From the NCBI RefSeq assembly GCF_011927955.1, contig NZ_JAATJN010000001.1:2170001-2234000 (forward strand): a stretch of 64,000 nucleotides of DNA. Reading direction: 5' to 3'. Both the position numbers and the translations under genes were made by a program. Within the stretch, counting starts at the first letter, position 1. Each line of letters starts with the position of its first letter. Below, piece after piece: positions 9,150-40,942 of the stretch. This DNA comes from Brevibacterium marinum (GTDB lineage: Bacteria > Actinomycetota > Actinomycetes > Actinomycetales > Brevibacteriaceae). The notes beneath the pieces were generated by a model that was given only the letters and a program-made list of their open reading frames with translations, was not told where the DNA came from and did no database searches.

Positions 9150-9198
9150 GGCAAGTCCCCTTCACACTACCTGCGAAAACGGTCCTTGGTGAGCGATA

Positions 9199-9242: not shown

Positions 9243-9298
9243 GTGAATGACTCGAACGTTCAGGCTGGTCAACAGTCGTCGATGAAGGGATTGTCTTC

Positions 9299-10447: not shown

Positions 10448-10506
10448 GACCTGACCTCTGACGAAAGTTCTCCGGTGCGTGACGATCAGACCAAGGAGGC
10501 TCTCTC

Positions 10507-11385: not shown

Positions 11386-11447
11386 CCGGTATCAAACCGC
11401 TCTCGGCCCTCCCGGTCCTCCCGCGCAACGCGCCGCCGCGCGACTCC

Positions 11448-11504
11448 GCGCCGATAGCAGACCCCAGCGTCGGGAGGCGAGGACAGGGAGTCTGCTTTCG
11501 GCGC
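11448..11504. terminator. Inverted repeat between convergent genes
   Basis: Fifteen-base arms (11448-11462, 11490-11504; GCGCCGATAGCAGAC and its complement with one mismatch) are separated by 27 bases. They lie midway between the convergent GNAT and S4 genes. A bidirectional terminator is plausible, but the loop is long and no T tract follows. Confidence 0.45.
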
Positions 11505-11554
11505 TGAAGTCTGCGATCGGCGAGGAGGCGAACCGGGATGAGACTGCGCGCAGG

Positions 11555-11971: not shown

Positions 11972-12083
11972 AGTCAGCCTCCAATACTGAATCCCCGTGT
12001 CAATGCCGCGGCCGGCGCCACTGTCATCGTCAATGCCGCGGCCGGTGGCGCTGTCATCGTCGACGTAGCGGTCAGTGCCACCA

Positions 12084-12893: not shown

Positions 12894-13091
12894 GCTCTTC
12901 GTATCGATGTGCGAGTCGGCCCGAAACGATCGGGGCCGAGTGGACGTCTGTGCCCACCAGTCTAATTCGCTTCCACCTGGTGACGAATCCACGCCCGGTG
13001 ATCACCGCACGCATACTCTTATGATTGCCGTGCGCCTACTCGCGTGCGATAGTGTTCGATCTGAGTCCTGACAAGTTGAGGAGAATCACCC

Positions 13092-15008
13092 ATGACCCTG
13101 CGCATGTCGTCCCTGTTTGTGCGAACCCAGAAGGAGGACCCGGTCGGCGCCGAGGTCGCCAGCCACAGACTGCTGCACCGTGCGGGCTACATCCGCCGAT
13201 CGGCCCCGGGGATCTACACATGGCTGCCGCTGGGACTGCAGGTCCTGGGCAAGATCGAAGCGATCGTGCGCGAAGAGATGGCCCGTGCCGGGTCTCAAGA
13301 GGTCCATTTCCCAGGCTTGCTGCCGGCCGACCCGTACCGGAAGTCCGGGCGTTGGGAGGCCTTCGGCCCCGACCTGTTCCACCTCAAGGATCGCAAGGAC
13401 AACGACTACATCCTCGCGCCCACCCACGAGGAGGTCTTCACCCTCCTCGTCAAGGATCTCTACTCCTCCTACAAGGACCTCCCGCTCTCGATCTATCAGG
13501 TCCAGAACAAGTACCGCGACGAAGCCCGTCCCCGCGCCGGTCTGCTGCGCGGCCGGGAATTCATCATGAAGGACGCCTATTCCTTCGACATCGACGACGC
13601 CGGACTCGATGCTTCCTACGAAAGGATGCGGGTGGCCTACCAGCGCACCTTCGCCCGCCTCGGGCTGCCCTGCCTGCCGGTCAAGGCCACTCCGGGGGCC
13701 ATGGGCGGATCCGGCACCGAGGAGTTCATCTACCCCTCCGAGGTCGGCGAGGACACATTCGTACGCTCCTCCGGCGGTTACGCGGCCAACGTCGAGGCCG
13801 TGACCTCGATCGTGCCCGAACCCATCGACTACTCGCTCTCACCCGCGGCCCACGTCGAAGACACCCCCGACACCCCGACGATCGAGACCCTCGTGGCCGC
13901 CGCGAACGCCGACCACCCCCGCGAAGACCGCGCCTGGACCGCGGCCGACACACTCAAGAACGTCGTCTGCGCCGTCACCCACCCCGATGGCACCCGCGAG
14001 ATCATCGTCATCGGTCTGCCCGGTGACCGTGAAGTCGATCTCGACCGCGCCGCCGGCACCGGGATGCTGGGCAACGGCGAGGTCGAACTCGAAGCAGCCA
14101 CCTCCGAGGATCTCGCCGCCCACCCGGAGCTCATCAGGGGCTACATCGGTCCCGGGGTCGACCTCGACGATCAGGTCCTGGGCCTCGAGGGCACCTCGAA
14201 GGTCCGCTTCCTCCTCGACCCCCGCGTCGTCGACGGCACCCGCTGGATCACCGGAGCCAACGAACCCGGACGTCACGTCTTCGACCTCGTCGCGGGTCGT
14301 GATTTCGCCGCCGATGGCACCATCGAGGCCGCCGAGGTGGTCCTCGGTGACCCGGCACCCGACGGTTCCGGCCCGCTGGAGCTGGCCCGTGGCGTGGAGA
14401 TCGGTCAGATCTTCAAGCTCGGCCGCAAGTACGCCGACTCCCTCGACCTCAAGGTCCTCGACGCCAACGGCAAGGCCACGACGGTGACCATGGGCTCCTA
14501 TGGACTCGGCGTCACCCGCGTCATGGCCTGCATCGCCGAGGAGTACCACAGCGAGTCCGGTCTCCTCTGGCCCCAGCACCTGGCTCCGGCCGATGTGCAC
14601 ATCATCGCCGCGGGCAAGGGCGACGACATCGCCGAGGCGGCGGAGAAGATGACCGCCGAACTGGAGGCCGAAGGCATCACCGTCCTCCTCGACGACCGCA
14701 ACAAGGTCTCACCCGGCTTCAAGTTCGCCGATGCCGAGCTCATCGGCATTCCGACCGTGATCGTCGTCGGCCGCGGACTCGCCGAGGGCAAGGTCGAGGT
14801 CCGCAATCGTCTCAGCGATGAGAAGTCGGACCAGCCCGTCGCCGAGGTGGTCGCTTCCACCGTGGCCACGATCCGTGCCGCTTACGCCACGGCCGATGCC
14901 GCGGCCGATGCCGCGATCGCCGAGGGAGCCGCGGCCGATGCCGCGATCGCCGACGATGCCGAGCTCACGGAGTCGATCCGTGCAGACTCGTCGGCCTCGG
15001 CACGATGA
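13092..15008 (+). CDS. proS: Prolyl-tRNA synthetase, bacterial type with editing domain
   Basis: A class II synthetase charging tRNA-Pro. Motif 1 and 2 regions ([47 protein letters not shown]) and motif 3 ([17 protein letters not shown]) flank a large insertion from about residue 230 to 400 corresponding to the YbaK-type editing domain that removes mischarged alanine. The anticodon-binding domain follows ([19 protein letters not shown]). A C-terminal tail of about 40 residues is made of [19 protein letters not shown]-type repeats, beyond the normal end. The ATG has GAGGAG about 9 bases upstream. A TauE/SafE gene begins 13 bases downstream. Confidence 0.97.
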
Positions 15009-15021
15009 GCACACCGAGGTG

Positions 15022-15828
15022 ATGGAGGCTCTCACCGGCGGCATCGATGTCACGCTCGCCATGCTCCTGTGGCTGCTGGCCGCAGGAGCACTCGCCGGCT
15101 GGATCGACGCCGTCGTCGGCGGTGGCGGACTGATCCAGCTTCCGGCGCTGCTGCTGGTCCCGGGCATGACACCGGTCCAAGCGGTCGCGACGAACAAGGT
15201 GGGATCGATCGCGGGCACGACCGCCTCGGCGGTGACCTATCTGCGCAAGATCACCCCCGACCGATCGGCGACGATCCCGGCCGCGGCCACGGCCTTTCTC
15301 GGTGCGGTCCTCGGAGCGAAACTCGCGACCTTCATCCCCAGCGATCTCTTCACCCCGATCATCCTCTTGGCGCTCATCGGGGTCGGACTCTTCACGGTCC
15401 TCAACCCCAGCCTCGGCGCCGATGCGAGTCTGCGGTTCGGCGAATCCTCGAAACGCCACCACGGTCTGTCATGGCTGATCGGCCTCGTCATCGGCGTCTA
15501 CGACGGCGTGCTCGGGCCCGGCACGGGATCGTTCCTTGTCATCGCCTTCGTCACCCTCATCGGATTCTCATTCCTCCAGGCCTCCGCCACCGCCAAGGTC
15601 ATCAACTGGGCGACGAACTTCGGCGCACTCGTCTACTTCATCCCCGACGGCCAGGTCGTATGGGCACTGGGTCTCGTCGTGGCCGTGGGCAACGTCCTCG
15701 GCGGGATCTTCGGAGCACGCACGGCCCTGAAGCAGGGCTCCGGGTTCGTCCGGGTCGTCTTCGTCGTCGTGGTTTCAGCGATGATCCTCAAACTCGGCTA
15801 CGACGTGATCGCCGGCCTCATCCACTGA
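15022..15828 (+). CDS. TauE/SafE-family membrane exporter
   Basis: A 268-residue membrane protein with about eight hydrophobic segments. The family repeats are visible: GWIDAVVGGGGLIQLPALLL with ATNKVGSIAGTT in the first half, and GVYDGVLGPGTGSFLVIAFV with ATAKVINWATNFGAL in the second half. Members move sulfite, sulfoacetate or other small organic anions. The substrate is not evident. Start: ATG 15022, with GTG at 15019 as an alternative. It lies just after proS and may be read on the same message. Confidence 0.9.
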   Translation: MEALTGGIDVTLAMLLWLLAAGALAGWIDAVVGGGGLIQLPALLLVPGMTPVQAVATNKVGSIAGTTASAVTYLRKITPDRSATIPAAATAFLGAVLGAKLATFIPSDLFTPIILLALIGVGLFTVLNPSLGADASLRFGESSKRHHGLSWLIGLVIGVYDGVLGPGTGSFLVIAFVTLIGFSFLQASATAKVINWATNFGALVYFIPDGQVVWALGLVVAVGNVLGGIFGARTALKQGSGFVRVVFVVVVSAMILKLGYDVIAGLIH

Positions 15829-15849
15829 GGCTCCCGGCAACTGTGAGGA

Positions 15850-16116
15850 TCCTTCAGGTCGCTCAGCCACCCGGCGCTGGAGGATGAAGACGTCTCAGCA
15901 ACCTTTCGGTCGCTGCGCAACCTGTCGCCGGGTTGCTCAGCGACCGGAAGGTTGCTGGCCTCGACCGCGGGGTTGCTCGGTGACCGCGGGGTTGCCAAGG
16001 CCGCTAGGGGTTGCTCAGCGGCGGAAGGTGTCGCTCAGTGGCGGAAGGTGTCGCTCAGTGGCGGAAGGGGTTGCTCAGTGGCGGTGGGGTTGCACAGCGG
16101 CGGTGGGGGTTGCTGG
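15850..16116. repeat. Array of 19-21-bp repeats beginning TTGC, with long hairpin
   Basis: From about 15933 to 16116 there are about ten units such as TTGCTCAGCGGCGGAAGGTG (16011), TCGCTCAGTGGCGGAAGGTG (16031) and TTGCTCAGTGGCGGTGGGGT (16071), mostly exactly 20 bp. The first part forms a hairpin with 26-base arms (15897-15922, 15931-15956; two mismatches, loop TGTCGCCG). A further diverged copy lies at 15850-15870. The same core reappears near 41960. It fills the gap between two convergent genes; no gene is seen here. Confidence 0.9.
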
Positions 16117-16128
16117 GACAAGGCTGAG

Positions 16129-17148
16129 TCAGCCGATGGGCTTGAGGGCGTGGGCGTTGACGCCGGCGACGTCGGCACCCGACAGCGCACGTGCGACCCA
16201 CAGCGACCTCGCAGCATCGGCGAGTGGTCCGGTCGCTCCGCCCCGGGCCGAGCGCAGATACCAGAACATGTTCGTGATCTCTCGGGCGACTGCGGCGCCC
16301 ATCCCGTACTGCGGATCCATGCCGGCACACAGGGCGAGATCGGTGGCGAATCCGCGCAGCCAGGCGGCCTGGGCCTGCGGATGCTGGGACGGGATCTCGA
16401 CCAGGCGGTTCCACAGCACCGGTGCCAGAGTGTATGCGGTGGGGCCCGAGAGCGGCAGCGGGTCGATGGCCTTCCACGTCGAGATCCCGGCGGAATCCGG
16501 GTTGCCGGCGAGGATGTTGTAGTAGTGCAGATCGGCGTGGATGAGCCAATTCTCGTCCGATGCGGCGAGCGTGTGCATCCAGTTCCGGGCGAACGAGAGC
16601 AGCAGAGAATCACCCGGCCCGGCTTCCGACCATCCGCTCAGCAGACTCGCATCGGCGTCGAAGGTGCTCAGCCATCCTGCGGCGACGTCTTGAACGCGCA
16701 GGAAGTCCGCGTCCGCCGGAACCTCGAGCGAGCGCTGCAGGGCTCCCCAGACCGGGGGCACATCGGCCAGCGGCAGTACGGAGAGGTTGTCCGTCGTTCG
16801 CAATCGCTCCTGCAGCGTCACCCGGAAGCTGTGATCGTCTCTGATGACCCTCACCGCGCCGTGGCCGTTCCACATCTTCAGTGCCCGCAGCGCCTGCGCA
16901 TGTGCGGCCGTATGCGCCGAGGTGGGGGCAGCGAACCGCAGAACGCCCTGATAGTTCTCCTGGGTCAGGACCGGGATGACGAGGCTCTCGCAGCCGGCCC
17001 AGGGCGCGCCGGGGACGTCGTCGAAACTCAGCTGCCACCGGTCGCTGAGCTCATTGGCCATGAAATCCAGTGCGGCGGTCCAGGAGGAGGTGCGGAACTC
17101 GCCGATGATGTCGCGAGTGGAGTTGAACAGAACCGGCGGCACCTTCAC
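16129..17148 (-). CDS. Aminoglycoside/hydroxyurea phosphotransferase family kinase
   Basis: A 339-residue protein of the streptomycin 6-kinase/hydroxyurea kinase family. The catalytic loop reads IHADLHYYNILAG (usual form HGDLHxxNxL), with the metal-binding Asp downstream in AIDPLPLSGPTAY. The N-terminal lobe is recognisable (CESLVIPVL, LRFAAPTSAHTAAH, AVRVIRDD). Members phosphorylate small hydroxylated antibiotics, but many chromosomal copies have no known substrate. Gly to Ala in the HGD motif is mild. The GTG start overlaps the preceding lipoprotein stop by four bases (GTGA), so the two are translationally coupled. Confidence 0.82.
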   Translation of the reverse strand: MKVPPVLFNSTRDIIGEFRTSSWTAALDFMANELSDRWQLSFDDVPGAPWAGCESLVIPVLTQENYQGVLRFAAPTSAHTAAHAQALRALKMWNGHGAVRVIRDDHSFRVTLQERLRTTDNLSVLPLADVPPVWGALQRSLEVPADADFLRVQDVAAGWLSTFDADASLLSGWSEAGPGDSLLLSFARNWMHTLAASDENWLIHADLHYYNILAGNPDSAGISTWKAIDPLPLSGPTAYTLAPVLWNRLVEIPSQHPQAQAAWLRGFATDLALCAGMDPQYGMGAAVAREITNMFWYLRSARGGATGPLADAARSLWVARALSGADVAGVNAHALKPIG

Positions 17149-18122
17149 TTCTTCGCCTCCGCCTCACCGGACTCCCCGGGATAGGAGTACCGAAGCACCT
17201 GCGGAATCGTGAAGACCGTCCGTGCACGTGCCGATTCCCACAGCCGCAGCGCGGCCGACCCATCGCTGCGCAGCCAGGGCAGAAGCGCCGCCGCCAGGCC
17301 GTCTTCGAGGTTCAGGGCCAGCTCCTCGGCGGTCGCGGGATCGGTGGGGCTTGGGTCGAGGTTCCAAGCGGGCGCGCCCGGGTCCGCATCGGTCTCGCCC
17401 AGTTTCTCGAGCATCTCTCCGGCCAGCGAGCCCAGGGACTCCAGTCGAGCCACACCGCGTCGGCGCTGGGGCGACTTTGCATCGAACATCACGGTCAGAC
17501 GCTCGTAGCCGTAGGAGGCTGCCCGAGCCCGGTCGAGGATCGCATTCCACACCTGTGGCCCTGGGGCACCCGCAGGCTGTGGGGTCTCAGCTGACGGTGC
17601 GGTCTCAGTGGACTGTTCGGAAGCGCGGTCGGCAGGGGACCCGCCGACGGAGGCACGTGAGTCGCGGATGAGGGATTCGCAGCTGCGGAGAATCCCGGAG
17701 TCCTCGGCTCCCGCCGTCACCGCCAACCCGGTGGCCGCATCCACGAGGACGGGGATGAGGGGTGGGGACAGGCTCGGGAGGGCACTGAACACCTCCTCGG
17801 TGACCGCCTCGGCGGCCTGAATGTAGGTGCGGGACTTCTCGGTCGGTGGGGGATCGGTGGCCATCTGACTCGGGGGTGACCAGATCGGTCCGATCGCCTT
17901 CCGCAGCTTCTGCAGATCCTCGCGTGCCGTGTCGGTGTCGGAGCCGTCCGGCGTGGTGGCGTCCAGGATCCGGGCGACCTTGTTGCGCAGCCGATCCGTG
18001 TCATCCAGCGTCGGAACGTCAGGCCCGGTGTCGAGTCTCAGACCGCAGCCCGACAGCAGGCTCAGGCTCGCCCCGCTTGCACCGAAGAGGAGAAGAGAAC
18101 GACGGCTGACGGGAAAACGCAT
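17145..18122 (-). CDS. Lipoprotein, probably DUF4439 (ferritin-like)
   Basis: A 325-residue exported protein. The N-terminus MRFPVSRRSLLLFGASGAS has a twin-arginine-like pair followed by a hydrophobic core and a lipobox LLSGC (Cys near residue 26), so it is likely lipidated at the outer membrane face. The C-terminal part (VWNAILDRARAASYGYERL, EELALNLEDGLAAALLPWL) is helical and resembles the DUF4439 ferritin-like proteins that actinobacteria often carry next to rimP and proS; this match is from memory and uncertain. A Ser/Pro/Ala-rich linker lies around residues 160-185. It is divergent from rimP. Confidence 0.68.
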   Translation of the reverse strand: MRFPVSRRSLLLFGASGASLSLLSGCGLRLDTGPDVPTLDDTDRLRNKVARILDATTPDGSDTDTAREDLQKLRKAIGPIWSPPSQMATDPPPTEKSRTYIQAAEAVTEEVFSALPSLSPPLIPVLVDAATGLAVTAGAEDSGILRSCESLIRDSRASVGGSPADRASEQSTETAPSAETPQPAGAPGPQVWNAILDRARAASYGYERLTVMFDAKSPQRRRGVARLESLGSLAGEMLEKLGETDADPGAPAWNLDPSPTDPATAEELALNLEDGLAAALLPWLRSDGSAALRLWESARARTVFTIPQVLRYSYPGESGEAEAKK

Positions 18123-18138
18123 AGCCCAATCCTAGCGG

Positions 18139-18179
18139 ATGCTTAACCTCGGTCAGGGGAGTCGCTTAGGGTTGAGCAT
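18139..18179. promoter_or_regulatory. Inverted repeat in the divergent region before rimP
   Basis: ATGCTTAACC (18139-18148) and GGTTGAGCAT (18170-18179) are inverted with one mismatch, 21 bases apart, between the lipoprotein gene and rimP. They could be an operator or overlapping promoter element. No clear -35/-10 pair could be fixed. Confidence 0.3.
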
Positions 18180-18256
18180 AGGCAATCAGCAGGGCATCGA
18201 GATCGTCCGAGGAGCGGGGAGCAGACCCCGCGATCGGGACGAGGACTGGAGGAGAT

Positions 18257-18721
18257 ATGGACGAGGACGTGGCTCGGATCGAAGAGCTGCTGCGGGAACC
18301 GCTCAGGACGTCCGGATTTCACCTGGAATCGGTCAAGGCCGTCGCCGCGGGACCGCGGCGGACGCTGACGGTCGTCGTCGACCTCGACGAATCCAGCACG
18401 GAGGCGATGTCGATGGACAAGATCGCCGAATCCAGCCGTCTGGTCGGAGACACCCTCGACGAGGTCGAGATCTTTCGGGACAAGCCCTATCAGCTCGAGG
18501 TGACCAGCCCGGGGGCGACGAGGAAGCTCGAGTGCCCCCGGCACTTCAAACGTGTGCTCGGCCGCAGGCTCGAGATCACGACGAAGAAGGACTCGTTCAA
18601 GCTCGATCTCGCCGATGTGGGCGAGAACTCAATTTCGGGAACCGACCCCGCCAGTCGTGAGAAGCGGACGGTGTCGCTGCCAGACATCGTCAAGGCGCAG
18701 GTCGAACTCAAGTTCCGGTGA
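18257..18721 (+). CDS. rimP: Ribosome maturation factor RimP
   Basis: A 154-residue protein needed for 30S subunit maturation. The N-terminal domain (RTLTVVVDLDE, DKIAESSRLVGDTLD), the family signature YQLEVTSPGATRKLECPRHF and the C-terminal SH3-like barrel (LEITTKKDSFKLDLADV) are present. GGAGGAG lies 5 bases before the ATG. It is the first gene of the nusA-infB cluster; nusA follows after 83 bases, with a possible internal -10 TAGAAT at 18735. Confidence 0.96.
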   Translation: MDEDVARIEELLREPLRTSGFHLESVKAVAAGPRRTLTVVVDLDESSTEAMSMDKIAESSRLVGDTLDEVEIFRDKPYQLEVTSPGATRKLECPRHFKRVLGRRLEITTKKDSFKLDLADVGENSISGTDPASREKRTVSLPDIVKAQVELKFR

Positions 18722-18804
18722 GTCCAAACTGCGATAGAATGTCACGCCTGCATAAATGAAGACAGACAATTCAATGCTCGAGGGAGCCGGAGAGGATATA
18801 GGCC

Positions 18805-19767
18805 ATGGATATCGACCTCAGTGTTCTGCGCATTATCGAGCGAGAGCGGGAGATTCCGCTCGAGACGCTGATCGAACTCATCGAACAGGCGCTCTACCTC
18901 GCTTATCAGAAAACCGAAGGCGCCTGGCCCGATGCTCGCGCCGAGCTGGACAAGTCTTCGGGGGAGGTCCGGATCCTCGCCGTCGAGTTCGACAATGACG
19001 ACAACCCGATCGGTGAATTCGACGACACCCCCGCCGGGTTCGGACGCATCGCGGCGCAGACCGCTCGCCAGGTCATCCACCAGCGTCTGCGCGACGTCGA
19101 GGACGAATCGCTGCTCGGCAGCTTCAAGGGCCGCGAAGGCGAGATCGTGTCCGGCACCATCCAGCAGGGCAGGGACCCGCAGATGGTCCAGGTCGACCTC
19201 GGCGATGTCGAAGCGGTGCTGCCTCCGCACGAGCAGGTCCCCGGTGAGACCTACCGGCACGGAACACGCCTCCGCGTCTATATCGCCGATGTCCACAAGG
19301 GGCCGAAGGGCACCTCTGTGACCGTCTCGCGCACGCACCCGAACCTCGTGCGCAAACTGTTCGCGCACGAGACGCCCGAAATCGCCGACGGCACCGTCGA
19401 GATCGTCTCCCTGGCCCGTGAAGCCGGTCACCGAACCAAGCTCGCGGTGCGTGCGACGAAGCCCGGTGTGAATGCGAAGGGTTCCTGCATCGGCGAACTC
19501 GGCTCCCGCGTCCGTGCCGTGATGAATGAGCTGGGCCAGGAGAAGATCGACATCGTCGACTACAACGACGATCCGGCCCAGTTCATCGGACACGCCCTGT
19601 CACCGGCCAAGGCGTCGCAGGTCGACATCATCGATGCGGATATGCAGGAATCACGTGCACTCGTCCCGCGCGACCAACTGTCCCTGGCCATCGGCAAAGA
19701 GGGTCAGAATGCGCGTCTGGCAGCCAAACTCACCGGCTGGAAGATCGACATCATCGCCGGCGAGTAG
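18805..19767 (+). CDS. nusA: Transcription termination/antitermination factor NusA
   Basis: A 320-residue RNA polymerase-binding factor. The N-terminal RNAP-binding domain (MDIDLSVLRIIEREREIPLE), the S1 domain (EIVSGTIQQGRD, DVEAVLPPHEQVPGE) and two KH domains (TKLAVRATKPGVNAKGSCIG and DQLSLAIGKEGQNARLAAKL) occur in order. The acidic C-terminal repeats of proteobacterial NusA are absent, as usual in actinobacteria. The start is fixed by a GGAG-rich region and the conserved N-terminus. Confidence 0.97.
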   Translation: MDIDLSVLRIIEREREIPLETLIELIEQALYLAYQKTEGAWPDARAELDKSSGEVRILAVEFDNDDNPIGEFDDTPAGFGRIAAQTARQVIHQRLRDVEDESLLGSFKGREGEIVSGTIQQGRDPQMVQVDLGDVEAVLPPHEQVPGETYRHGTRLRVYIADVHKGPKGTSVTVSRTHPNLVRKLFAHETPEIADGTVEIVSLAREAGHRTKLAVRATKPGVNAKGSCIGELGSRVRAVMNELGQEKIDIVDYNDDPAQFIGHALSPAKASQVDIIDADMQESRALVPRDQLSLAIGKEGQNARLAAKLTGWKIDIIAGE

Positions 19768-28515: not shown

Positions 28516-28743
28516 GAGAGCCCGAGACGGGCCGGCATCTGCCGCGTCGAACGGGTGGCGTGCGTCTCGACCGCTCGTTGCGGCAACTGCGGTAGACTTC
28601 GAAGTGGACAATCATGCCATGGACGTTTCGGTCCTCGGTAGTGGCCTCCGGAGGAACGCGCACAATCCCGCCGGTTCCGTGGGCCCCGATCGATGACCGG
28701 CTTGGATCCATGGGATGTCCAAGCCAATATCCGCCGGATCGAC

Positions 28744-32532: not shown

Positions 32533-33165
32533 ATGCCCAGGAAGAGTGCATCGGATCGCCGGGAGGAGATCCTGGCCGCGACCGTCGAGGAGATCGAGAG
32601 CACGGGCCTGCGCACCCTCCGAGTCGCCGATGTCGCCGACCGGCTGGGCCTGAGTCCGAGCCTGGTCATCTACCACTTCGTGACGAAGGAAGCGCTCGTC
32701 GCTGCGGCCTTCGCGCATGCCGGGGAGAACGACCTCTATCGCGCGCGTCGCCTCGCCACCGGTCGCAGGCCGGCGACGGAAAGGCTGAGCGACGTCGTCC
32801 GGTGGTACATGCCGACCGGGTCGACGCGAAGCTGGAAAATCTGGATCGACGGCTGGTCGGCCGGGCTCTTCGACGCCGAGGTGAGGTCGACGTTCGCCGC
32901 GCTCGACCGCGACTGGAAGACGATCCTCTCGGGACTCATCGTCGAAGGCCTCGAAGCCGGAGAGTTCCGGTGCGCTGGCACTGCGGAGGTTACATCCGCA
33001 GGGGTGGCGGAGGCCACATCCACGGAGGCGGCCGAGGCCTGTGCGACGCGGATTCTCGCCTACCTCGATGGGTTGGCGGTCCAGCTCATCTTCAACCCCG
33101 AATCCGTCTCCCCGGCGGCCCTGTCTCGATGGGTCGAGGCCTTCGTCGCCCGGGAGCTCGAATGA
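32533..33165 (+). CDS. TetR/AcrR-family transcriptional regulator
   Basis: A 210-residue regulator. The N-terminal HTH domain is RREEILAATVEEIESTGLRTLRVADV in two parts, with recognition region GLSPSLVIYHFVTKEALV. The C-terminal ligand domain (RSWKIWIDGWSAGLFDAEV, LDGLAVQLIFNPES) is of the TetR_C/BetI-like kind. A Thr/Ser/Ala/Glu stretch (EVTSAGVAEATSTEAAEA) near residue 155 looks like a short repeat insertion. If the insertion sequence is removed, the gene would lie about 190 bases from the dehydrogenase operon, its likely target. Confidence 0.88.
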   Translation: MPRKSASDRREEILAATVEEIESTGLRTLRVADVADRLGLSPSLVIYHFVTKEALVAAAFAHAGENDLYRARRLATGRRPATERLSDVVRWYMPTGSTRSWKIWIDGWSAGLFDAEVRSTFAALDRDWKTILSGLIVEGLEAGEFRCAGTAEVTSAGVAEATSTEAAEACATRILAYLDGLAVQLIFNPESVSPAALSRWVEAFVARELE

Positions 33166-33195
33166 ATGTCGCGGGCGCCTCGGCGCGCTCCGTAA

Positions 33196-33221
33196 TGCCT
33201 CATGTCAATATGCCCGCGAAA
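33196..33221. repeat. Solo copy of the insertion-sequence end
   Basis: TGCCTCATGTCAATATGCCC followed by GCGAAA closely matches the left end of the adjacent element (starting at 33231) in the same orientation. It lies outside the 4-bp duplication. It may be the remnant of an earlier insertion, or a preferred landing site. Confidence 0.75.
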
Positions 33222-33230
33222 AGTTTCCGA

Positions 33231-34577
33231 TGCCTCACATAGATTTGCCCGCGAAACTTACCCCGTCTTGACTCGCACACCCTTGCGCACATCCGGCAAC
33301 GCTGACGGGAACGACGCTAGATAGAGCTGCTCAGTCTTCTTGCTCGATAGCACCAGCAACCGGTCCTGGACCCGAGCGATCTCAGCAGCGATCTTCGCCG
33401 GATTGAGACCATCGCGATACGCCGTCATCTCCTCGACCTGTTTTGGCGAGAGCACGCCGGCCTCGAGGAGCCTGTCGAACGGTGTTCGCGGAGCATCATA
33501 GATCCGTTTACGCCGCCCATTCTTCGTCGACCCATACCCAGTCGGTTTGACCGTGGGCATCAGATAATTCACCCGATCATTGACCAGATGCCATAACCGG
33601 TTCAATGCTCGTCGCTCCAGATCAGTGTCGTAGCGATAGTAAAATCCGTACCGGCGCACGACGTGATTGTTCTTCGACTCGATGGTGGCCTGATCGTTCT
33701 TCTTATACGGCCTGGACCTGGTGAAGTAGATACCCTTCGATCCGGCCCACTCGATGACGTATTGGTTGAGGAACTCCGACCCGTTATCGAAGTCCAGACC
33801 AGTAATCTCAAACGGAATCTCACGAGCCGCAGTCTTCAATCCGGCCAGAATGTTCGTATGCGCGTTGTTACGCACCGTGCGCGAGAACGTCCACCCGGTA
33901 TGGAAATCGGTGAGGTTGAGCGTGCGTGCGAATTCCCCAGACTCGACAGGACCACAGTGGGCGACGGTATCGCCTTCGAAGAAGCCGGGTTCGTCTTCGA
34001 CCTCGTCACCGGCCCGCCGAATCGTGATCGCCGAGCGTAGCAAAGAACCCGGCTTCGTTGTTGAGATCCCATTGATCGCGTCCCTGGCTCGCATAGGTTT
34101 GAGGTACCGGTCGATCGTGGCCGGACTCATCGCCAATAGCTCCTTGCGCACGTGCTTGTCGTAGCGGTCCTGGCCGGTGGTGAGCTCGTTGTGGGCTTCG
34201 AGGAGGTCAAGGAGGATGCGCATCGTGGCGTGAAGGTATTTGCCGCACTGGCCGCCCGAGATCGCCCACACGCGCTGGAGAACCTTGACCGCGTCGTAGG
34301 AGTATTTCCTCGCACGCGGCTTCCGAGGCTGTTTGGCGACCTGCCGGCCGGGCCCTGGCGGATGTTTAGCTGCCTGAGTCAGACGCCGTCGAGCGTTGTC
34401 GCGGGTCCACCCCGTGACTGCCACGACTTCGTCGAGCACGGCGCCCTTGTTCTTCTTCGAAGCCTTCTTGTATTGCCTGGCGTATTTCGTGGTGATCTCT
34501 GTACGAGTCGCCATCGACAGTTCACTCCCCATAGCTTCCGAGGATCCACCATTTCGCGGGCAAAAGTATATGAGGCA
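33231..34577 (-). mobile_element. DD(35)E insertion sequence with CCGA target duplication
   Basis: A 1347-base element. The ends TGCCTCACATAGATTTGCCC+GCGAAA (33231-33256) and the complement of 34552-34577 (TGCCTCATATACTTTTGCCC+GCGAAA) are imperfect inverted repeats of 26 bases. Four-base direct repeats CCGA flank it at 33227-33230 and 34578-34581. It contains one transposase gene. Its base composition is lower in G+C than neighbouring genes. The ends and duplication are intact, so it is likely a recent insertion. I do not assign it to a named IS family. Confidence 0.88.
33258..34514 (-). CDS. Transposase with integrase (rve) catalytic core
   Basis: A 418-residue transposase. An N-terminal DNA-binding region (LDEVVAVTGWTRDNARRRL) is followed by a basic linker. 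The catalytic core carries Asp 182 in FFEGDTVAHC, Asp 243 in LDFDNGSEFL and Glu 279 in NDQATIESKNNH, giving the spacing D-35-E. All three residues are present, so it should be active. ATG 34514 has GGGGAG 10 bases upstream; ATG 34532 would add six residues. The open frame runs on to 36041 but that part is antisense to the neighbouring dehydrogenase. The stop TAA touches the left inverted repeat. Confidence 0.92.
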   Translation of the reverse strand: MATRTEITTKYARQYKKASKKNKGAVLDEVVAVTGWTRDNARRRLTQAAKHPPGPGRQVAKQPRKPRARKYSYDAVKVLQRVWAISGGQCGKYLHATMRILLDLLEAHNELTTGQDRYDKHVRKELLAMSPATIDRYLKPMRARDAINGISTTKPGSLLRSAITIRRAGDEVEDEPGFFEGDTVAHCGPVESGEFARTLNLTDFHTGWTFSRTVRNNAHTNILAGLKTAAREIPFEITGLDFDNGSEFLNQYVIEWAGSKGIYFTRSRPYKKNDQATIESKNNHVVRRYGFYYRYDTDLERRALNRLWHLVNDRVNYLMPTVKPTGYGSTKNGRRKRIYDAPRTPFDRLLEAGVLSPKQVEEMTAYRDGLNPAKIAAEIARVQDRLLVLSSKKTEQLYLASFPSALPDVRKGVRVKTG

Positions 34578-34660
34578 CCGAGGGTGGCATCCGGGCTGTT
34601 TATCTGAGTCTTGTCGCGCTCTTGACGCATGTTGCGCGGGACGCCAGACTGGGAGCAGAC

Positions 34661-34688
34661 TTGTACTGAACAGCGGTTCAGTTAAATC
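34661..34688 (+). promoter_or_regulatory. Promoter with palindromic operator in its spacer
   Basis: TTGTAC (34661-34666) and TAAATC (34683-34688) are 16 bases apart. The palindrome ACTGAAC-AGCG-GTTCAGT (34665-34682) fills the spacer exactly, the classic arrangement for TetR-type repression. The dehydrogenase ATG is 12 bases downstream, so the message would be nearly leaderless. Confidence 0.72.
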
Positions 34689-34700
34689 CTTGGGAGCGAC

Positions 34701-35909
34701 ATGTTCATGGACATCACCTGGCAGGATCCGGGCACCGGAGCACACGGATTCGTCGTCATCGACACTCTCGTTCGAGGGGCCGCCTCCGGAGGGCTGCGGA
34801 TGCGTGAGGGATGCACCCTGGAGGAGGTGCGGGGCCTGGCGCAGGCGATGACCCGCAAGGAGGCGATCCACTTCCGACCGGGTCGAGCCTACGTCCCGAT
34901 CGGAGGTGCGAAGGGAGGCATCGACTTCGACCCACGGGACCCGAGGGCCAAGCACGTCCTCGAACGATTCCTCATCGCCGTGAATCCGATCATGCGCAGC
35001 TATTGGGCACTCGGTGAGGACCTCGGAGTCCGCCAGAGCGACATCGACGACATCGTCTCCTCCCGCGGGCTCGGCAGTGCACTGGCGGCGATCGAGAAGC
35101 TGCTCACTGATCCGAGTGCGGCCGCCGAGCGGACCGCCGCGGCATTCGGCACCGTCGTCGACGGCCTGTCCCAGGACGAACTCGTCGGCGGACTCGGCGT
35201 GGCCACCTCGGCGATCACTACACTTGCGGCCCAGGGGTCGGATCCGGCAACCGCTTCCGCAGTGATCCAGGGATTCGGATCGATGGGTGGGGCGAGCGCC
35301 CGGTTCCTCGCCGAGGCGGGGGTGCGGATCGTCGGCATCGCCGACGCCGACGGGTTCGTGACCAACCCGGCCGGCCTCGACGTCGAGACCCTGTTGGCGA
35401 CCCGCGATCCCTTCGGCGGCATCGACCGCTCGGCCCTGCGTCCCGGCGACAGCGACGGTGATCGCGAGGGCTGGCTGAGTGCCGACTGCGATGTGCTCGT
35501 GCCCGCCGCGGTCAGCTACGCGATCACGGCCGAGAACTGTGATGCCGTCAATGCCGGGCTCATCGTCGAAGCCGCGAACATGCCCGTGCTGCCCGCGGCC
35601 GAGTCTCGGCTGCGAGACCGCGGGGTGACGGTGGTGCCCGACTTCCTCGCGAACTCCGGCACGAACGCTTGGTGGTGGTGGGTGACGTTCGGCGACGTCG
35701 ACGGCGGCTGGGAGGACACCCGCCGGCTGGTGACCACGACTCTGCGTGAGCTCACGGAAGACGTGCTGAGAGAGGCCGATCGGCGACATATCTCCGTCAG
35801 GCAGGCTGCTCAGGCACGGGTCGATGCCAATCTCGAACGGCTGCGGGCGCCGGCCGGCCCCGAAGCCGGGGCCGCTGCTGAGGTGGCCGACACGATGGTC
35901 GGACCCTAG
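34701..35909 (+). CDS. Glu/Leu/Phe/Val dehydrogenase family protein
   Basis: A 402-residue NAD(P)-dependent amino acid dehydrogenase homologue. The substrate domain shows RGAASGGLRMREGCTLEEV, MTRKEAIHF and PIGGAKGGIDFDP (catalytic Lys), and the acidic site GEDLGVRQSDIDD. The Rossmann domain is VIQGFGSMGGASARFL. The usual NAGGV motif after VVPDFLAN is replaced by SGTNAWWWWVTFGDV, so substrate range probably differs from glutamate or leucine dehydrogenase. It heads a four-gene operon; the next gene starts five bases on. Confidence 0.88.
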   Translation: MFMDITWQDPGTGAHGFVVIDTLVRGAASGGLRMREGCTLEEVRGLAQAMTRKEAIHFRPGRAYVPIGGAKGGIDFDPRDPRAKHVLERFLIAVNPIMRSYWALGEDLGVRQSDIDDIVSSRGLGSALAAIEKLLTDPSAAAERTAAAFGTVVDGLSQDELVGGLGVATSAITTLAAQGSDPATASAVIQGFGSMGGASARFLAEAGVRIVGIADADGFVTNPAGLDVETLLATRDPFGGIDRSALRPGDSDGDREGWLSADCDVLVPAAVSYAITAENCDAVNAGLIVEAANMPVLPAAESRLRDRGVTVVPDFLANSGTNAWWWWVTFGDVDGGWEDTRRLVTTTLRELTEDVLREADRRHISVRQAAQARVDANLERLRAPAGPEAGAAAEVADTMVGP

Positions 35910-35913
35910 AATC

Positions 35914-38052
35914 ATGGATCGGTTCTTCGACCCCTCCAGCGTGGCCATCCTCGGGGCGTCGAACGACCCCGCGAAATGGGGATTCTGGCTCTCCGCCGGT
36001 GCCCTCAGAGGTGCCGAGAGGCGCCGGGTGCACCTCATCAACTCACGAGTGGCCTCGATTCAGGCCCAACCCACCTACGCGAGCCTCGGCGATCTGCCGG
36101 AGGTTCCGGAGCTGCTGGTGGTCTCGATCCCCGGCAGCGGGGTCCACTCGGTCGTCACGGAAGCGCTGGATGCCGGGGTCGGGGCCTTCCTCATCGTCTC
36201 GGCCCGGGTCCCCGACGCCGCCGATCTTGCCGCCCGCATCGTCTCCGCCGGTGCCCGCCTCATCGGCCCGTCATCGCTGGGCATCGTCGATTCGGGCAAC
36301 GATCTGCTTCTGGCCTGGGGCAACTTCACCCCCGGGTCCCTGGCCGTCGTGACGCAGAGCGGCCAGTTGGGAACGGAGATCGCGACCCTGTCCGCGCGCA
36401 GCGGGCTGGGCATCTCCCGCTTCGCCTCCATCGGGGGACAGTCCGACGTTCGGGCCGCAGAGGTCCTCAACACCCTCGTCGACGACGTCGACACCACCCA
36501 GGTGGTCATCTACCTCGAGTCCTTCACCGGCGGAAGCGCACTCGTTACCGCCATGCAGGGACTGCGTGCGGCCGGAAAGCCCACGATGATACTGACTACG
36601 GGCCAATCGGACGCCGGTGCCAGGCTCGCCCGCTCACACACCGGCTCGCTCACCTCGGCGAGGGACACCGTCGATGCGGCCTGTCGCGCCGCCGGCGCCA
36701 TCCGACTGGATACGCCGGTCGAAGCCGTCGAACTCGCCGGATACTTCGCCACATCCTGGCTGCCCGCAGGCAGGAGACTCGCCATCATCTCGGACTCCGG
36801 CGGGCAGGGAGCCATCGCCGCGGACCGGGCCGAGAGCCACGGGCTGAGCGTCGACGTCCTTTCCACACCCACCCGCCTGCGCGTCGAAGAGCACCTGCCA
36901 CAGGCCGGGCACATCGACAATCCGATCGATCTCGACGGGGCGGGGGAAGCGGATCTGTCGGTCCACTCCTCACTTGTCGACGCCCTCCTGCGCGACGACA
37001 CGATCGACGCCGTCGTCCTCAGCGGCTACTTCGGCTGCTACGGCGAGGACGTCGCTGCTCTTCTGGACGCGGAGCTGGCCGAGGTCGATCGGCTGGGCGA
37101 GGTCGTGCGAACTCACCGCAAACCCCTCATCGTCCACTCGATGAGTGCCGACTCCCAGGCCGTCGCGGCGCTGTGGCAGAACTCGATACCCGTCTACACC
37201 TCGATCGAATCGGCCATGCGAGTCATCGCGCGCGCCGGCTTCTACGCCGCGCATTCGGGCCGCATCACCGAGGCCCTGGAGCAGTCGGGGCCGGTCACCC
37301 CATGGGGGACCGGCTATGGCGCTGCCCGGAACACGCTCACGGCGGCCGGGGTCCCGATGCCGCGAGCCATGACCCTGAATCGCGGAACCGAACTCGCCGA
37401 GGCGCTGGCACAGTCCGGACTGACCCCGCCGTTCGTGCTCAAGGCCGGGTGGCCCGCGCACAAGACCGAACTCGGGGCCATCGCCCTCGGATTGGGCGAT
37501 GCCGCAGCGCTCGAGCACGCCCATGGGGAGATGATCGGCCGACTCGGCGAGGGCGAGTACATCGTCGAAGAGATGGACACCCGCGACGAGGTCGTCGAGA
37601 TCCTCGTCGGCGGGCGACGGGACGAGAAATTCGGGCCGATCGTGATGGTCGGTGCGGGCGGGACCGAGACCGAACTCTACGGAGACACGTGGCTGGAACT
37701 GGCACCGGTCTCGCACGCGGAAGCCCTCGATATGATCTCCCGACTCACCTGCTACCGGCTCCTCACCGGGTGGCGGGGCAGGACGGCGGCGGACCTCGAC
37801 GAGCTGGCCGAGATCATCGTCTCCGTCTCCCGCCTCATCGCGGGGCACAATGAGATCCAGGAGATCGAGATCAACCCGGTCCGGGTCACCCCCGCCGGAG
37901 CACTCGCGGTCGACGCGCTCGTCGTGACCGACCGCGGCAGTGACGAGACCGACAGCGATGACGAGAACGACTGCAGTCACGACAGCGGCGGCCGCGGTGA
38001 TGCCGCGACCGAGACCGACGACCGCGGTGACGACGAGAAGGAGCCACAATGA
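35914..38052 (+). CDS. ADP-forming acyl-CoA synthetase (fused subunits)
   Basis: A 712-residue NDP-forming acyl-CoA ligase. Order of domains: CoA-binding (FFDPSSVAILGASNDPAKWG), succinyl-CoA-ligase-like (AVVTQSGQLGTEIATLSA, with the phospho-His region ARSHTGSLTSARD near residue 240), a flavodoxin-like middle domain (IDNPIDLDGAGEADLS), and a C-terminal ATP-grasp domain (PFVLKAGWPAHKTELG, VGAGGTETELYGDTWLELAP). Such enzymes interconvert acid + CoA + ATP with acyl-CoA. The tail of about 35 residues is Asp/Glu-rich with repeats. The stop overlaps the next ATG (ATGA). Confidence 0.92.
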   Translation: MDRFFDPSSVAILGASNDPAKWGFWLSAGALRGAERRRVHLINSRVASIQAQPTYASLGDLPEVPELLVVSIPGSGVHSVVTEALDAGVGAFLIVSARVPDAADLAARIVSAGARLIGPSSLGIVDSGNDLLLAWGNFTPGSLAVVTQSGQLGTEIATLSARSGLGISRFASIGGQSDVRAAEVLNTLVDDVDTTQVVIYLESFTGGSALVTAMQGLRAAGKPTMILTTGQSDAGARLARSHTGSLTSARDTVDAACRAAGAIRLDTPVEAVELAGYFATSWLPAGRRLAIISDSGGQGAIAADRAESHGLSVDVLSTPTRLRVEEHLPQAGHIDNPIDLDGAGEADLSVHSSLVDALLRDDTIDAVVLSGYFGCYGEDVAALLDAELAEVDRLGEVVRTHRKPLIVHSMSADSQAVAALWQNSIPVYTSIESAMRVIARAGFYAAHSGRITEALEQSGPVTPWGTGYGAARNTLTAAGVPMPRAMTLNRGTELAEALAQSGLTPPFVLKAGWPAHKTELGAIALGLGDAAALEHAHGEMIGRLGEGEYIVEEMDTRDEVVEILVGGRRDEKFGPIVMVGAGGTETELYGDTWLELAPVSHAEALDMISRLTCYRLLTGWRGRTAADLDELAEIIVSVSRLIAGHNEIQEIEINPVRVTPAGALAVDALVVTDRGSDETDSDDENDCSHDSGGRGDAATETDDRGDDEKEPQ

Positions 38053-39779
38053 CAGAGGAACGGGCCGAGATCACCGGTGGCGCACACCTGGCCCGTGCGC
38101 TGAGAGCCGAGGGAATCACACGGGTCTTCGGGATCCCAGGGACGCACAACCTCGAGATCTTCGCACAGCTGGCGGCCGAGGACATCGAGATCATCACGCC
38201 TCGACACGAACAGGGCGCCGGGTTCATGGCAGACGGCGCCGCCCGCGCCTCCGGCGAAGTGCAGGTCGTCGTCACCACGACGGGGCCGGCTGTGCTCAAC
38301 GCCCTGACCGCGCTGCTTCAGTCCTTCACCGACTCGGTCCCCGTCCTGCTCATCGGCCCCGGCATGCCCCTGACCCACCCCGGGCGGGGCAATGGGCTCC
38401 TCCATGAGGTGCGCAATCAGAGCCAGGCGATCGAAGCGATCCTCGGCGACAGCCACCGGGTGACGAGTCCCGGCGAGGTGTCGCTGGCACTCGGGCAGGC
38501 CCTGTCGACGATGCGGACCGGTCGCGCCCGCCCCGCCTACATCGAGATTCCGCTCGACCTCATCGAGACGGAGGGACCAGGATGGCTGCACCCGGCGGTG
38601 ACCCGAGGTGTCCCGGCACCCGAACCCTCGGCCATCAGATCCGCCGCAGAGGCGCTGGCGGGCTCCCAGCGCCCCCTCCTCATCGTCGGTGCAGGGGCCC
38701 GCAGTGCCGGACCGGAGATCGAAGAGCTCTCCGAGGCGCTCGGAGCCGGGGTGATCCTGTCCTCGAATGCCAAGGGCACGATCGACGACGGGTTCGAGAA
38801 CTGCCTCGGCGCCATCGGAGTCCTCGAGGAGCTGCCCGACCTGCTCGGCGCCGCCGACGCAGTCGTGGCCATCGGCACGGAACTCGCGCCCAGCGATTTC
38901 TGGCCCGAACCCTTGCCGCTGCCGCACACGGTCGTGCGCATCGACCTCGACGAGATCCAGATGCTGCGCAACGCCCGCGTCACCCACCCGATCCCGGCCC
39001 ACGCCAAGGACTCGACGACCGCCCTGACACACCGACTGCAGCAGACCAGATCGCCCAGCCTCTCACAGTCGGCACTCGAGTGGCTGCGCAGTCGGCAGGA
39101 GACGATCGCTGCGGCAGCCGCGAACGACGGTACACCCTGGGCAATTCTCAGCGGAGCACTCAACGACTACACCGCCTCGGCGGAATCGACTGTCATCGTT
39201 GCCGCGGATTCCACGATGTGCTGCTACTACGGAGTCCAGACCGGATGGAACGCCCGCCGAGGCGACCGCTTCCTCTACCCTGCGGGAGCCGGAACACTGG
39301 GCTACGGTCTGCCGGCCGGGATCGGGGCGAAACTCGCCGTCCCCGAGTCCACGGTCGTGGCGATCGAGGGCGACGGCGGTGCGATGTTCACGATCACCGA
39401 ACTCGCCGCCGCGGTGCAGGCGCGGGTGTCGCTGACCCTCATCATCGTCGACAACGGCGGCTACGGCGAGATCCGGAACGAGATGGCCGATCGCGGTGAC
39501 ACTCCTGCGGGTGTGGCACTGCTGGGACCCGACTTCCCCGCCTTGGCGAGATCGATGGGCGCTCGCGGCCACCACATCGATACGCGCGCTCAGCTGCTGT
39601 CGGCGCTGAGGGACGCGGAGGACTTCGCCGGACCGAGCCTCATCCACATGACCGAGGACTCACGAGCCGCGACCGACATGCTGGGCCGGTCCCGGGACAA
39701 CGACGAATCCCGGCAGCACGACCGACCCCGAGACGCCCACGACCGGCCCCGGAAGAACGAGGAGAGCGATCTGACATGA
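38049..39779 (+). CDS. TPP-dependent 2-oxoacid decarboxylase/acetolactate synthase-like enzyme
   Basis: A 576-residue three-domain thiamine diphosphate enzyme. The Pyr domain has RVFGIPGTHNLEIFAQL and the catalytic Glu in TPRHEQGAGFMADGAA. The central domain follows (RPLLIVGAGARSAG), and the PP domain has GDGGAMFTITELAAA to VDNGGYGEIRNEM for Mg-TPP binding. PLTHPGRGNGLLHEVRNQ resembles 2-ketoarginine (5-guanidino-2-oxopentanoate) decarboxylases of the AruI type more than biosynthetic IlvB, which fits its place after an amino acid dehydrogenase. The tail has HDRPRDAHDRPR repeats. ATGA overlaps on both sides. Confidence 0.85.
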   Translation: MTEERAEITGGAHLARALRAEGITRVFGIPGTHNLEIFAQLAAEDIEIITPRHEQGAGFMADGAARASGEVQVVVTTTGPAVLNALTALLQSFTDSVPVLLIGPGMPLTHPGRGNGLLHEVRNQSQAIEAILGDSHRVTSPGEVSLALGQALSTMRTGRARPAYIEIPLDLIETEGPGWLHPAVTRGVPAPEPSAIRSAAEALAGSQRPLLIVGAGARSAGPEIEELSEALGAGVILSSNAKGTIDDGFENCLGAIGVLEELPDLLGAADAVVAIGTELAPSDFWPEPLPLPHTVVRIDLDEIQMLRNARVTHPIPAHAKDSTTALTHRLQQTRSPSLSQSALEWLRSRQETIAAAAANDGTPWAILSGALNDYTASAESTVIVAADSTMCCYYGVQTGWNARRGDRFLYPAGAGTLGYGLPAGIGAKLAVPESTVVAIEGDGGAMFTITELAAAVQARVSLTLIIVDNGGYGEIRNEMADRGDTPAGVALLGPDFPALARSMGARGHHIDTRAQLLSALRDAEDFAGPSLIHMTEDSRAATDMLGRSRDNDESRQHDRPRDAHDRPRKNEESDLT

Positions 39780-40942
39780 GCTACACACCCTGGCCGCTGA
39801 CCGATGAGCAGAACGACATCATCGAACTGTGTCGGACCTTCGCGAAAGACAGGATTCGTCCGGCAGCGCGAGCCGTCGACGAAGCCGATACCCAGTCGCC
39901 GGTCGAACTGTTCCGTGAGGCGGCACGCGTGGGCATCACCGACTTCATGATCCCCGAAGAGTACGGGGGTGGCGGATTCACCGACGTCTTCACCCAATGC
40001 CTCGTTCAGGAGCAGCTGTGCTTCGGAGACCCCGGCATCGGCAATCTCCTGTGTTCCAACGGGTTCTTCGCCGATCCGATCCTCGCGCTGGGAACCACGG
40101 ACCAGAAGGAGATGTGGCTGAGTCCGCTGACCGGGCCCGACCCGAACCTCACCGCGCTGGCAACGACCGAACCGGGTTCCGGATCCGACTCGGCCTCGAT
40201 CACCACTCGGGCGACAGCCGTCGACGGAGGGTACGTCCTCAACGGGCAGAAGGCCTGGATCTCGAACGCGGGGCTGGCCGACAGCTACGTCGTCTTCGCG
40301 AAGACGGATCCCTCGCAGCGCTCCCGCGGGGTCAGCGCCTTCCTCCTGCCCCGCGAGACCTCGGGCATGGATTTCGGGGCACCGATGAAGAAGATGGGCC
40401 AGCGCGCGATCGTGTGTCGCGAGATCTTCTTCGACGATGCATTCGTGCCCACGGACAACCGCCTCGGCGAGGAGGGACAGGGCTTCTACGGGCTTATGCG
40501 CACCTTCGACATCTCCCGTGTGGTCCTCGGCGCTGCGGCACTGGGCACGGCCAGGGCCGCCTACGAATACGCCCGCGACTATGCACGGGATCGCACACAG
40601 TTCGGCTCACCGGTCATCGATCACCAGGCCGTGGGCTTCCGCCTGGCGGACATGGCGTCGCGGATCGACGCTGCTTGGCTGCAGGTCCTCAACGCGGCGC
40701 GGATGATCGATGCGGGCGGTGACGTGCCACGGGAGACGGTCACCGCCTCGGCGGCGATGGCGAAGCTGGGCGCCTCCGAGACGGCGATGTTCTGCACCTG
40801 GGCTGGAGTCCAGACCTTGGGAGGTTGGGGGTACTCCCGCGAACACCCGGTCGAGCAGTGGATGCGCGATGCCAAACTCGAGGAGATCGAGGAGGGCACC
40901 TCGGACATCATGCGGCTGCTCATCTCACGCAACCTGCCGTGA
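39776..40942 (+). CDS. Acyl-CoA dehydrogenase
   Basis: A 388-residue FAD enzyme introducing a 2,3 double bond in an acyl-CoA. Family motifs: MIPEEYGGGGFTDV, ATTEPGSGSDSASI, KAWISNAGLADSYVVFAKT, RTQFGSPVIDHQAVGF and VQTLGGWGYSREHPVEQW. The catalytic Glu is in LEEIEEGTSDIMRLLI. It is the last gene of the operon and overlaps the decarboxylase by four bases. Together with the ligase it implies oxidation of the acid formed upstream. The chain specificity cannot be told. Confidence 0.93.
   Translation: MSYTPWPLTDEQNDIIELCRTFAKDRIRPAARAVDEADTQSPVELFREAARVGITDFMIPEEYGGGGFTDVFTQCLVQEQLCFGDPGIGNLLCSNGFFADPILALGTTDQKEMWLSPLTGPDPNLTALATTEPGSGSDSASITTRATAVDGGYVLNGQKAWISNAGLADSYVVFAKTDPSQRSRGVSAFLLPRETSGMDFGAPMKKMGQRAIVCREIFFDDAFVPTDNRLGEEGQGFYGLMRTFDISRVVLGAAALGTARAAYEYARDYARDRTQFGSPVIDHQAVGFRLADMASRIDAAWLQVLNAARMIDAGGDVPRETVTASAAMAKLGASETAMFCTWAGVQTLGGWGYSREHPVEQWMRDAKLEEIEEGTSDIMRLLISRNLP

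Follow-up and report, generated by a model that had tools for sequence, protein, structure and literature searches.

The present analysis concerns a candidate amino acid degradation operon in a 64,000-nucleotide stretch of the Brevibacterium marinum genome (RefSeq assembly GCF_011927955.1, contig NZ_JAATJN010000001.1, positions 2,170,001 to 2,234,000 of the forward strand; hereafter the window, numbered from its first letter). The locus comprises a TetR-family regulator gene with a BetI-type C-terminal domain (32533 to 33165, 210 residues; Pfam TetR_N and TetR_C_6 over cut-off) and four enzyme genes, all five being intact open frames on the plus strand. The enzymes are a Glu/Leu/Phe/Val (ELFV)-type amino acid dehydrogenase of a TNAWWWW subfamily (34701 to 35909, 402 residues; PF00208, PF02812), an ADP-forming acyl-coenzyme A (acyl-CoA) synthetase (35914 to 38052, 712 residues; CoA_binding_2, Succ_CoA_lig, ATP-grasp_5), a thiamine pyrophosphate (TPP)-dependent enzyme, probably a 2-oxo-acid decarboxylase (38049 to 39779, 576 residues; TPP_enzyme N, M and C), and an acyl-CoA dehydrogenase (ACAD) with an EEGT motif (39776 to 40942, 388 residues; Acyl-CoA_dh N, M and 1). 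Between the regulator and the dehydrogenase lie a 1427-bp insertion sequence (33190 to 34616, minus strand) whose transposase gene carries an rve domain (33261 to 34514, minus strand), a putative promoter TTGACG-N17-CAGACT (34622 to 34650, plus strand), predicted from conservation across Brevibacterium upstream regions, and a putative TetR operator, ACTGAACAGCGGTTCAGT (34665 to 34682, no strand), predicted from conservation of the palindrome. There is about an even chance that the locus is a TetR-repressed catabolic operon whose substrate is arginine or a similar amino acid of guanidino or cationic character, a judgement that strikes a compromise between the confidence placed in the order of the pathway and that placed in its substrate.

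An initial annotation, made from the letters of the sequence, had named these five protein families, and the Pfam and NCBIfam domains bear it out. It had also described the four enzyme genes as tightly coupled through ATGA overlaps. This applies to the ligase/TPP (38049) and TPP/ACAD (39776) junctions but not to the dehydrogenase/ligase junction, where the TAG stop (35907 to 35909) is followed by a 4-nucleotide gap and then by ATG at 35914. This ligase start is favoured because the alignment with the solved homologue 9y43 begins at the same methionine; a longer frame from 35824 is an alternative that would overlap the dehydrogenase. Both the ligase and the TPP enzyme end in long, charged, low-complexity C-terminal tails (37940 to 38049 and 39680 to 39776). 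The absence of an aldehyde dehydrogenase, from which the annotation had concluded that this step must be supplied elsewhere or that the chemistry differs, is no fatal gap: none was seen within the TetR-to-ACAD stretch (32533 to 40942), but the 4.22-Mb host genome contains 23 matches to PF00171 (E ≤ 1e-30), and the gene is present in 8 of the 29 related clusters described below.

The grouping of these genes exceeds chance. Linkage was counted in the best 80 of at least 485 dehydrogenase relatives (L038 to L117; 19 Brevibacterium and 61 other-genus loci, 14 of the latter ending early at contig ends), a set that is not a random sample for linkage and whose sister Brevibacterium are not independent; the further loci L141 to L153 may repeat genomes of this set. 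At E ≤ 1e-40 and an identity of at least 33% (TPP), 35% (ligase) or 55% (ACAD), all four genes occur together in 16/19 Brevibacterium and 21/61 other-genus loci, so that the same cluster, which the initial annotation had proposed to seek in other actinobacteria, does recur there. The full set is present in Brevibacterium, Arthrobacter, Streptomyces, Amycolatopsis, Gordonia, Geodermatophilus and others. The dehydrogenase and TPP genes occur without the ligase in 3/19 Brevibacterium and 8/61 other-genus loci, and some mycobacteria have the dehydrogenase-TPP pair alone. A sample of 396 phylum genomes, not chosen by linkage, contains a dehydrogenase match in 18 (E ≤ 1e-45), a TPP enzyme match in five (E ≤ 1e-100) and a ligase match in five (E ≤ 1e-110), the own genome being included each time. 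All four other TPP matches lie directly beside a dehydrogenase match, while only one of the four other ligase matches (G134) lies in such a cluster. Within the family, 37/60 genomes, own included, have a dehydrogenase match at E ≤ 1e-30, all in one genus of four.

The regulator is a TetR-family member by its TetR_N score (38.5, gathering cut-off 24); an identification as BetI itself was rejected (NCBIfam BetI equivalog 46.8, cut-off 201.3). Its orthologue lies upstream of the dehydrogenase and on the same strand in 19/19 named Brevibacterium loci, at a distance of 94 to 275 nucleotides in 13 and of 578 to 1863 nucleotides in six, and 18/19 of these upstream regions contain the promoter-like pair TTGAC-N(12-24)-CAGA(C/A)T. 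The exact palindrome ACTGA-N8-TCAGT occurs at one site only in the host genome (34665 to 34682), and other genera likewise keep it upstream of their dehydrogenase gene. Across 94 sources (1,853,437 bases) it occurs 66 times, in 64 cases no more than 155 bp upstream of a cluster gene and twice elsewhere, compared with 0, 0, 0, 0 and 6 occurrences of five control palindromes, in a test that gauges position more than frequency, the sources being centred on the cluster. The genes behind the 64 sites are the dehydrogenase (49), TetR/permease, ligase, ACAD and TPP genes, and some sites serve two divergent genes. By this conserved operator upstream of its genes, the cluster is a predicted TetR-controlled regulon, and the genes are probably co-regulated.

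Operator-like sites away from the cluster are more heterogeneous. Eight whole genomes contain 24 exact sites, 13 at known loci and 11 off-locus; six of the latter (five regions) were examined, of which two precede pathway-type genes, two stand in tandem in a Mycobacterium and two are apparently unrelated. In Fodinicola, an unlinked ligase-ACAD-TetR group, whose frames look broken, carries the same palindrome, and in Prescottella it stands ∼14 bp before the called start of a gamma-aminobutyrate (GABA)/polyamine-type binding protein gene. The two tandem operator-type palindromes in Mycobacterium (L170, 9429 to 9468) are close to a TetR gene, but the genes that follow them are of another set. The host genome also contains two single-mismatch and twelve two-mismatch sites. 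One of the former (L136, 4689 to 6928) precedes by 24 bp a gene for an S15 peptidase, next to a betaine-type ATP-binding cassette (ABC) system; the other has an alcohol dehydrogenase gene on one side and a phosphotransferase-domain gene on the other. No further pathway genes were found among these two and the three two-mismatch sites examined. A guanidine riboswitch is without support, no Rfam RNA reaching the gathering score in seven cluster loci. At that score, the window and four loci yielded only the Actino-pnp RNA near the pnp gene, which in the window lies at the pnp gene start (28627 to 28701).

The initial annotation had proposed TetR control without mentioning the insertion sequence that splits the regulator from the operon. 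This element is matched in the host genome by one full copy identical to it and by several others that are interrupted or partial; its transposase (IS481 model below cut-off, rve over cut-off) was found in none of the 80 named relative loci. CGCT flanks it on both sides and may be a target duplication; the other full copy has no matching flanks. The insertion sequence is probably young, because it is identical to another full copy, and the window copy of the operon could then be decaying, with its TetR cut off and the operon dead or constitutive. All five genes are nevertheless open, and the element ends 5 bp before the TTGACG of the promoter-like pair, leaving the predicted promoter and operator intact; such decay is very improbable. 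As both lie downstream of the insertion sequence, control by TetR from a distance would still be possible, and the conserved operator supports this part of the annotation.

The dehydrogenase belongs to the ELFV family (PF02812, 45.7 bits, cut-off 25.3; PF00208, 117.8 bits, cut-off 23.4). Its AlphaFold model (mean predicted local distance difference test score 92.2) gives its best structural match to glutamate dehydrogenase (GDH) 4xgi (Z 43.5, root-mean-square deviation 3.5, 354 aligned) and also matches phenylalanine dehydrogenase 1c1d (Z 36.6, deviation 2.6, 324 aligned). An assignment as GDH was rejected: the best NCBIfam GDH model scores 131.9 against a cut-off of 620, and the pocket residues differ. 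Sequence alignment reveals that lysines 53 and 71, which we take to be the active-site lysines, are retained, as is aspartate 107, presumably catalytic. In the same alignment, and by sequence only, the Lys and Ser of GDH that presumably hold the gamma-carboxylate of glutamate align to Ser29 and Trp325. Among the 44 TNAWWWW rows, residue 29 is a serine 42 times and a glycine twice, and Trp325 is invariant. Of 50 sequences compared, 44 combine TNAWWWW with Glu54, Tyr64 and an insertion of six residues behind the first lysine region; the remaining six form a sister group lacking all four features, two members of which (L141 and L152) have WAWW, no insertion and an amidase gene nearby. As judged from these alignments, the dehydrogenase represents a distinct TNAWWWW subfamily without the glutamate-binding residues of GDH. 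An acidic residue and several aromatic ones near its pocket suggest that it would suit a cationic side chain.

For the TPP enzyme, the best NCBIfam model is NF005712 (5-guanidino-2-oxopentanoate decarboxylase, 422.9 bits), and five orthologues score 503.1, 494.8, 536.3, 545.8 and 518.3 with it, four of them over the cut-off of 500. Acetolactate-synthase models score too (229.7 bits for TIGR00118), as would be expected if the TPP enzyme were a carboligase or oxidase of that group and the cluster consisted of two modules with a common repressor, the ligase and ACAD acting on another compound. The dehydrogenase-TPP pairs without a ligase counted above and the separation of both halves in Fodinicola fit such an arrangement. 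It is rather improbable, however: the decarboxylase model scores far better, in the window as in the five relatives, and aldehyde dehydrogenase is clustered in relatives.

The remaining two enzymes would form the CoA-dependent half. The ligase is an ADP-forming acyl-CoA synthetase by its CoA-binding, flavodoxin-like and ATP-grasp domains (PF13380, PF13607 and PF13549, all over cut-off) and by an SHTG motif, which we take to be its phospho-His loop; its nearest solved sequences are 4-hydroxybutyrate-CoA ligase, 3-hydroxypropionate-CoA ligase and dimethylsulfoniopropionate (DMSP) lyase. The ACAD has all three ACAD domains and the sequence IEEGT at residues 371 to 375, the Glu of the EGT motif being presumably the catalytic residue. 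Within its subfamily, EEGT is conserved in 38/38 rows reaching the motif, of an alignment of 42 from which one row ending before the motif (L042) and three other ACADs of 29 to 31% identity (L082 and the second ones of L089 and L104) were set aside; the two nearest solved ACADs shown have YEGT. EEGT would be compatible with a cationic acyl group.

Genomic neighborhood analysis was based on the 29 TPP-bearing other-genus loci, with gene kinds named from one scanned representative each. Ligase and ACAD are each present in 21/29 and a short-chain dehydrogenase/reductase (SDR) in 15/29. Transporters and aldehyde dehydrogenases, which the initial annotation had suggested looking for nearby, are both found, in 24/29 (an importer or amino acid permease) and 8/29 loci, respectively. 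The permeases include kind c19 (10 loci) and kind c42 (5 loci). A polar amino acid ABC permease with its binding protein occurs in 6/29, and polar ABC genes also stand beside TetR in three Brevibacterium loci (L045, L051, L053). The polar ABC binding protein of Arthrobacter crusticola (L063) retains the Arg and Asp of glutamine-binding protein, which we take to hold the alpha-carboxylate and alpha-amino group there. A GABA/polyamine-type binding protein, so named from the solved protein closest to the L060 copy, is present in 2/29 loci and a monoamine/putrescine-oxidase-like amine oxidase in 4/29. The aldehyde dehydrogenases resemble aminobutyraldehyde dehydrogenase but fall below the cut-off of that model. 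Two Geodermatophilus clusters contain a dimethylargininase (381.9 and 374.6 bits, cut-off 340); in one (L106, 677 to 12588), an ABC importer, the dimethylargininase, ACAD, ligase, SDR, TPP enzyme, dehydrogenase and aldehyde dehydrogenase follow on one strand. Three mycobacterial loci (L072, L075, L080; ∼8579 to 19400) have a dehydrogenase paralogue without TPP enzyme, flanked by an amine oxidase, an amidohydrolase and an amino acid permease, and two Orn/Lys/Arg-decarboxylase-type genes each (one scanned). The dimethylargininase, the scores of the TPP orthologues, the Orn/Lys/Arg-decarboxylase-domain genes with the amine oxidase near them, the monoamine/putrescine-oxidase-like genes and the GABA/polyamine-type importers suggest a guanidino or cationic substrate.

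From family membership, gene linkage, operator conservation and the linked importers and aldehyde dehydrogenase, which are features of the sequence itself, we infer every reaction, the substrate, the binding of the repressor and its ligand. The ELFV-type dehydrogenase would deaminate an alpha-amino acid taken up by the cell, and the TPP enzyme would decarboxylate the resulting 2-oxo acid, which gives an aldehyde with one carbon fewer. An aldehyde dehydrogenase, encoded elsewhere in the host genome and clustered in some relatives, would yield the acid, which the ADP-forming ligase would convert to its acyl-CoA; the ACAD would then form a 2-enoyl-CoA, followed by a beta-oxidation-like end. In the arginine version, arginine would pass through 2-ketoarginine, 4-guanidinobutanal and 4-guanidinobutyrate to 4-guanidinobutyryl-CoA. 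TetR would occupy ACTGA-N8-TCAGT, a short distance past the predicted -10 box, until released by a compound of the pathway. The order amino acid, oxo acid, aldehyde, acid, acyl-CoA, enoyl-CoA is likely; the deaminate-decarboxylate-activate-desaturate scheme of the initial annotation fits the genes that travel along in relatives. That the substrate carries a guanidino group falls somewhat short of an even chance.

The same order could serve a quaternary-ammonium or sulfonium amino acid, such as trimethyllysine or S-methylmethionine, with the ligase activating a betaine-like acid (trimethylaminovalerate, DMSP). Several features point this way: the ligase is related by sequence to the ADP-forming DMSP lyase (7cm9, E 1.9e-52), the TetR domain is BetI-type, four neighbouring tryptophans of the dehydrogenase could cage a methylated cation, sarcosine-oxidase-like genes occur in 3/29 loci, and a homocysteine S-methyltransferase domain occurs in 1/29 loci and in L104. 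The scanned c42 permease (L067) likewise has an S-methylmethionine permease as its best model, but it scores 487.8 against a cut-off of 716. Such a substrate is unlikely, leaving both the dimethylargininase and the guanidino-type TPP score unexplained.

An Ehrlich-type degradation of methionine (or leucine) matches the reaction order exactly, running through 4-methylthio-2-oxobutanoate, methional and 3-methylthiopropionate to its CoA ester and an enoyl-CoA, steps that would parallel the second half of DMSP demethylation. A crotonase gene, of a kind found in 2/29 loci, follows the ACAD in Arthrobacter crusticola. The polar and GABA/polyamine-type importers, the dimethylargininase and the Orn/Lys/Arg-decarboxylase-domain genes misfit this route, however, and none of the families looked for in the 29 loci supplies a methionine-specific gene as a regular neighbour, which makes it quite improbable.

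Several observations weigh against the arginine or guanidino pathway itself. The window TPP enzyme misses the NF005712 cut-off (422.9 vs 500), and for the other three enzymes the best NCBIfam models are named after other substrates and score well short of their cut-offs. The supporting neighbours are of limited distribution, dimethylargininase in 2/29 loci and aldehyde dehydrogenase in 8/29. In 28/61 other-genus loci, the dehydrogenase has none of its three partners in the fetched stretch, and therefore the subfamily may have other uses. The three Brevibacterium loci mentioned above keep the dehydrogenase and TPP enzyme only, and a ligase match (E ≤ 1e-60) is absent from 2/4 Brevibacterium genomes searched; the CoA half is therefore dispensable. 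Finally, the exact operator has 24 sites in the eight whole genomes vs 15 for a reversed-pattern control, so that unlinked operator sites need gene evidence.

On a broader scale, the cluster could represent a widespread actinobacterial regulon in which an ELFV arginine or methylarginine dehydrogenase takes the place of a transaminase and breakdown of the guanidino acid proceeds at the CoA-ester level via 4-guanidinocrotonyl-CoA, perhaps releasing guanidine or urea without a guanidinobutyrase; this proposition is tentative and on balance doubtful. Two papers in the open literature mention 4-guanidinobutyryl-CoA, one of them on arginine-derived polyketides. No description of the cluster was found in the open PubMed Central literature, searched with narrow terms and with subscription papers mostly outside it; the enzyme families are known and their combination is apparently undescribed. 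The analysis outlines a pathway and a regulon that can be tested, centred on a dehydrogenase subfamily for which family membership does not disclose the substrate, and the conserved operator offers a handle for regulon mapping. Should a guanidino or methylated amino acid prove to be the substrate, the cluster would imply its CoA-dependent degradation and add a new specificity to a well-used enzyme family.

Among known systems, the arginine transaminase route of Pseudomonas (AruH, AruI) leads from arginine through 2-ketoarginine and 4-guanidinobutanal to 4-guanidinobutyrate. The same intermediates are proposed here, and the TPP enzyme is similar to the model for 5-guanidino-2-oxopentanoate decarboxylase; unlike in Pseudomonas, a dehydrogenase would replace the transaminase, and the acid would be converted to a CoA ester and desaturated instead of being hydrolyzed by guanidinobutyrase. 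The rocDE-Rv2323c locus of Mycobacterium tuberculosis encodes a dimethylargininase-annotated protein required for growth on arginine (PMC4569260); such a protein is shared with the two Geodermatophilus clusters, whereas the available portions of that paper mention no dehydrogenase/TPP/CoA-ligase set. The DddX-type and hydroxyacid ADP-forming acyl-CoA synthetases share the three domain kinds of the window ligase and are its nearest solved sequences, yet with the NCBIfam models for acetate, hydroxypropionate and hydroxybutyrate ligases the window enzyme scores well short of the cut-offs. The dehydrogenase, in turn, has both Pfam domains, both lysines, the catalytic aspartate and the fold in common with the ELFV glutamate, leucine and phenylalanine dehydrogenases, but is set apart from them by Ser29, Trp325, the six-residue insertion and TNAWWWW.

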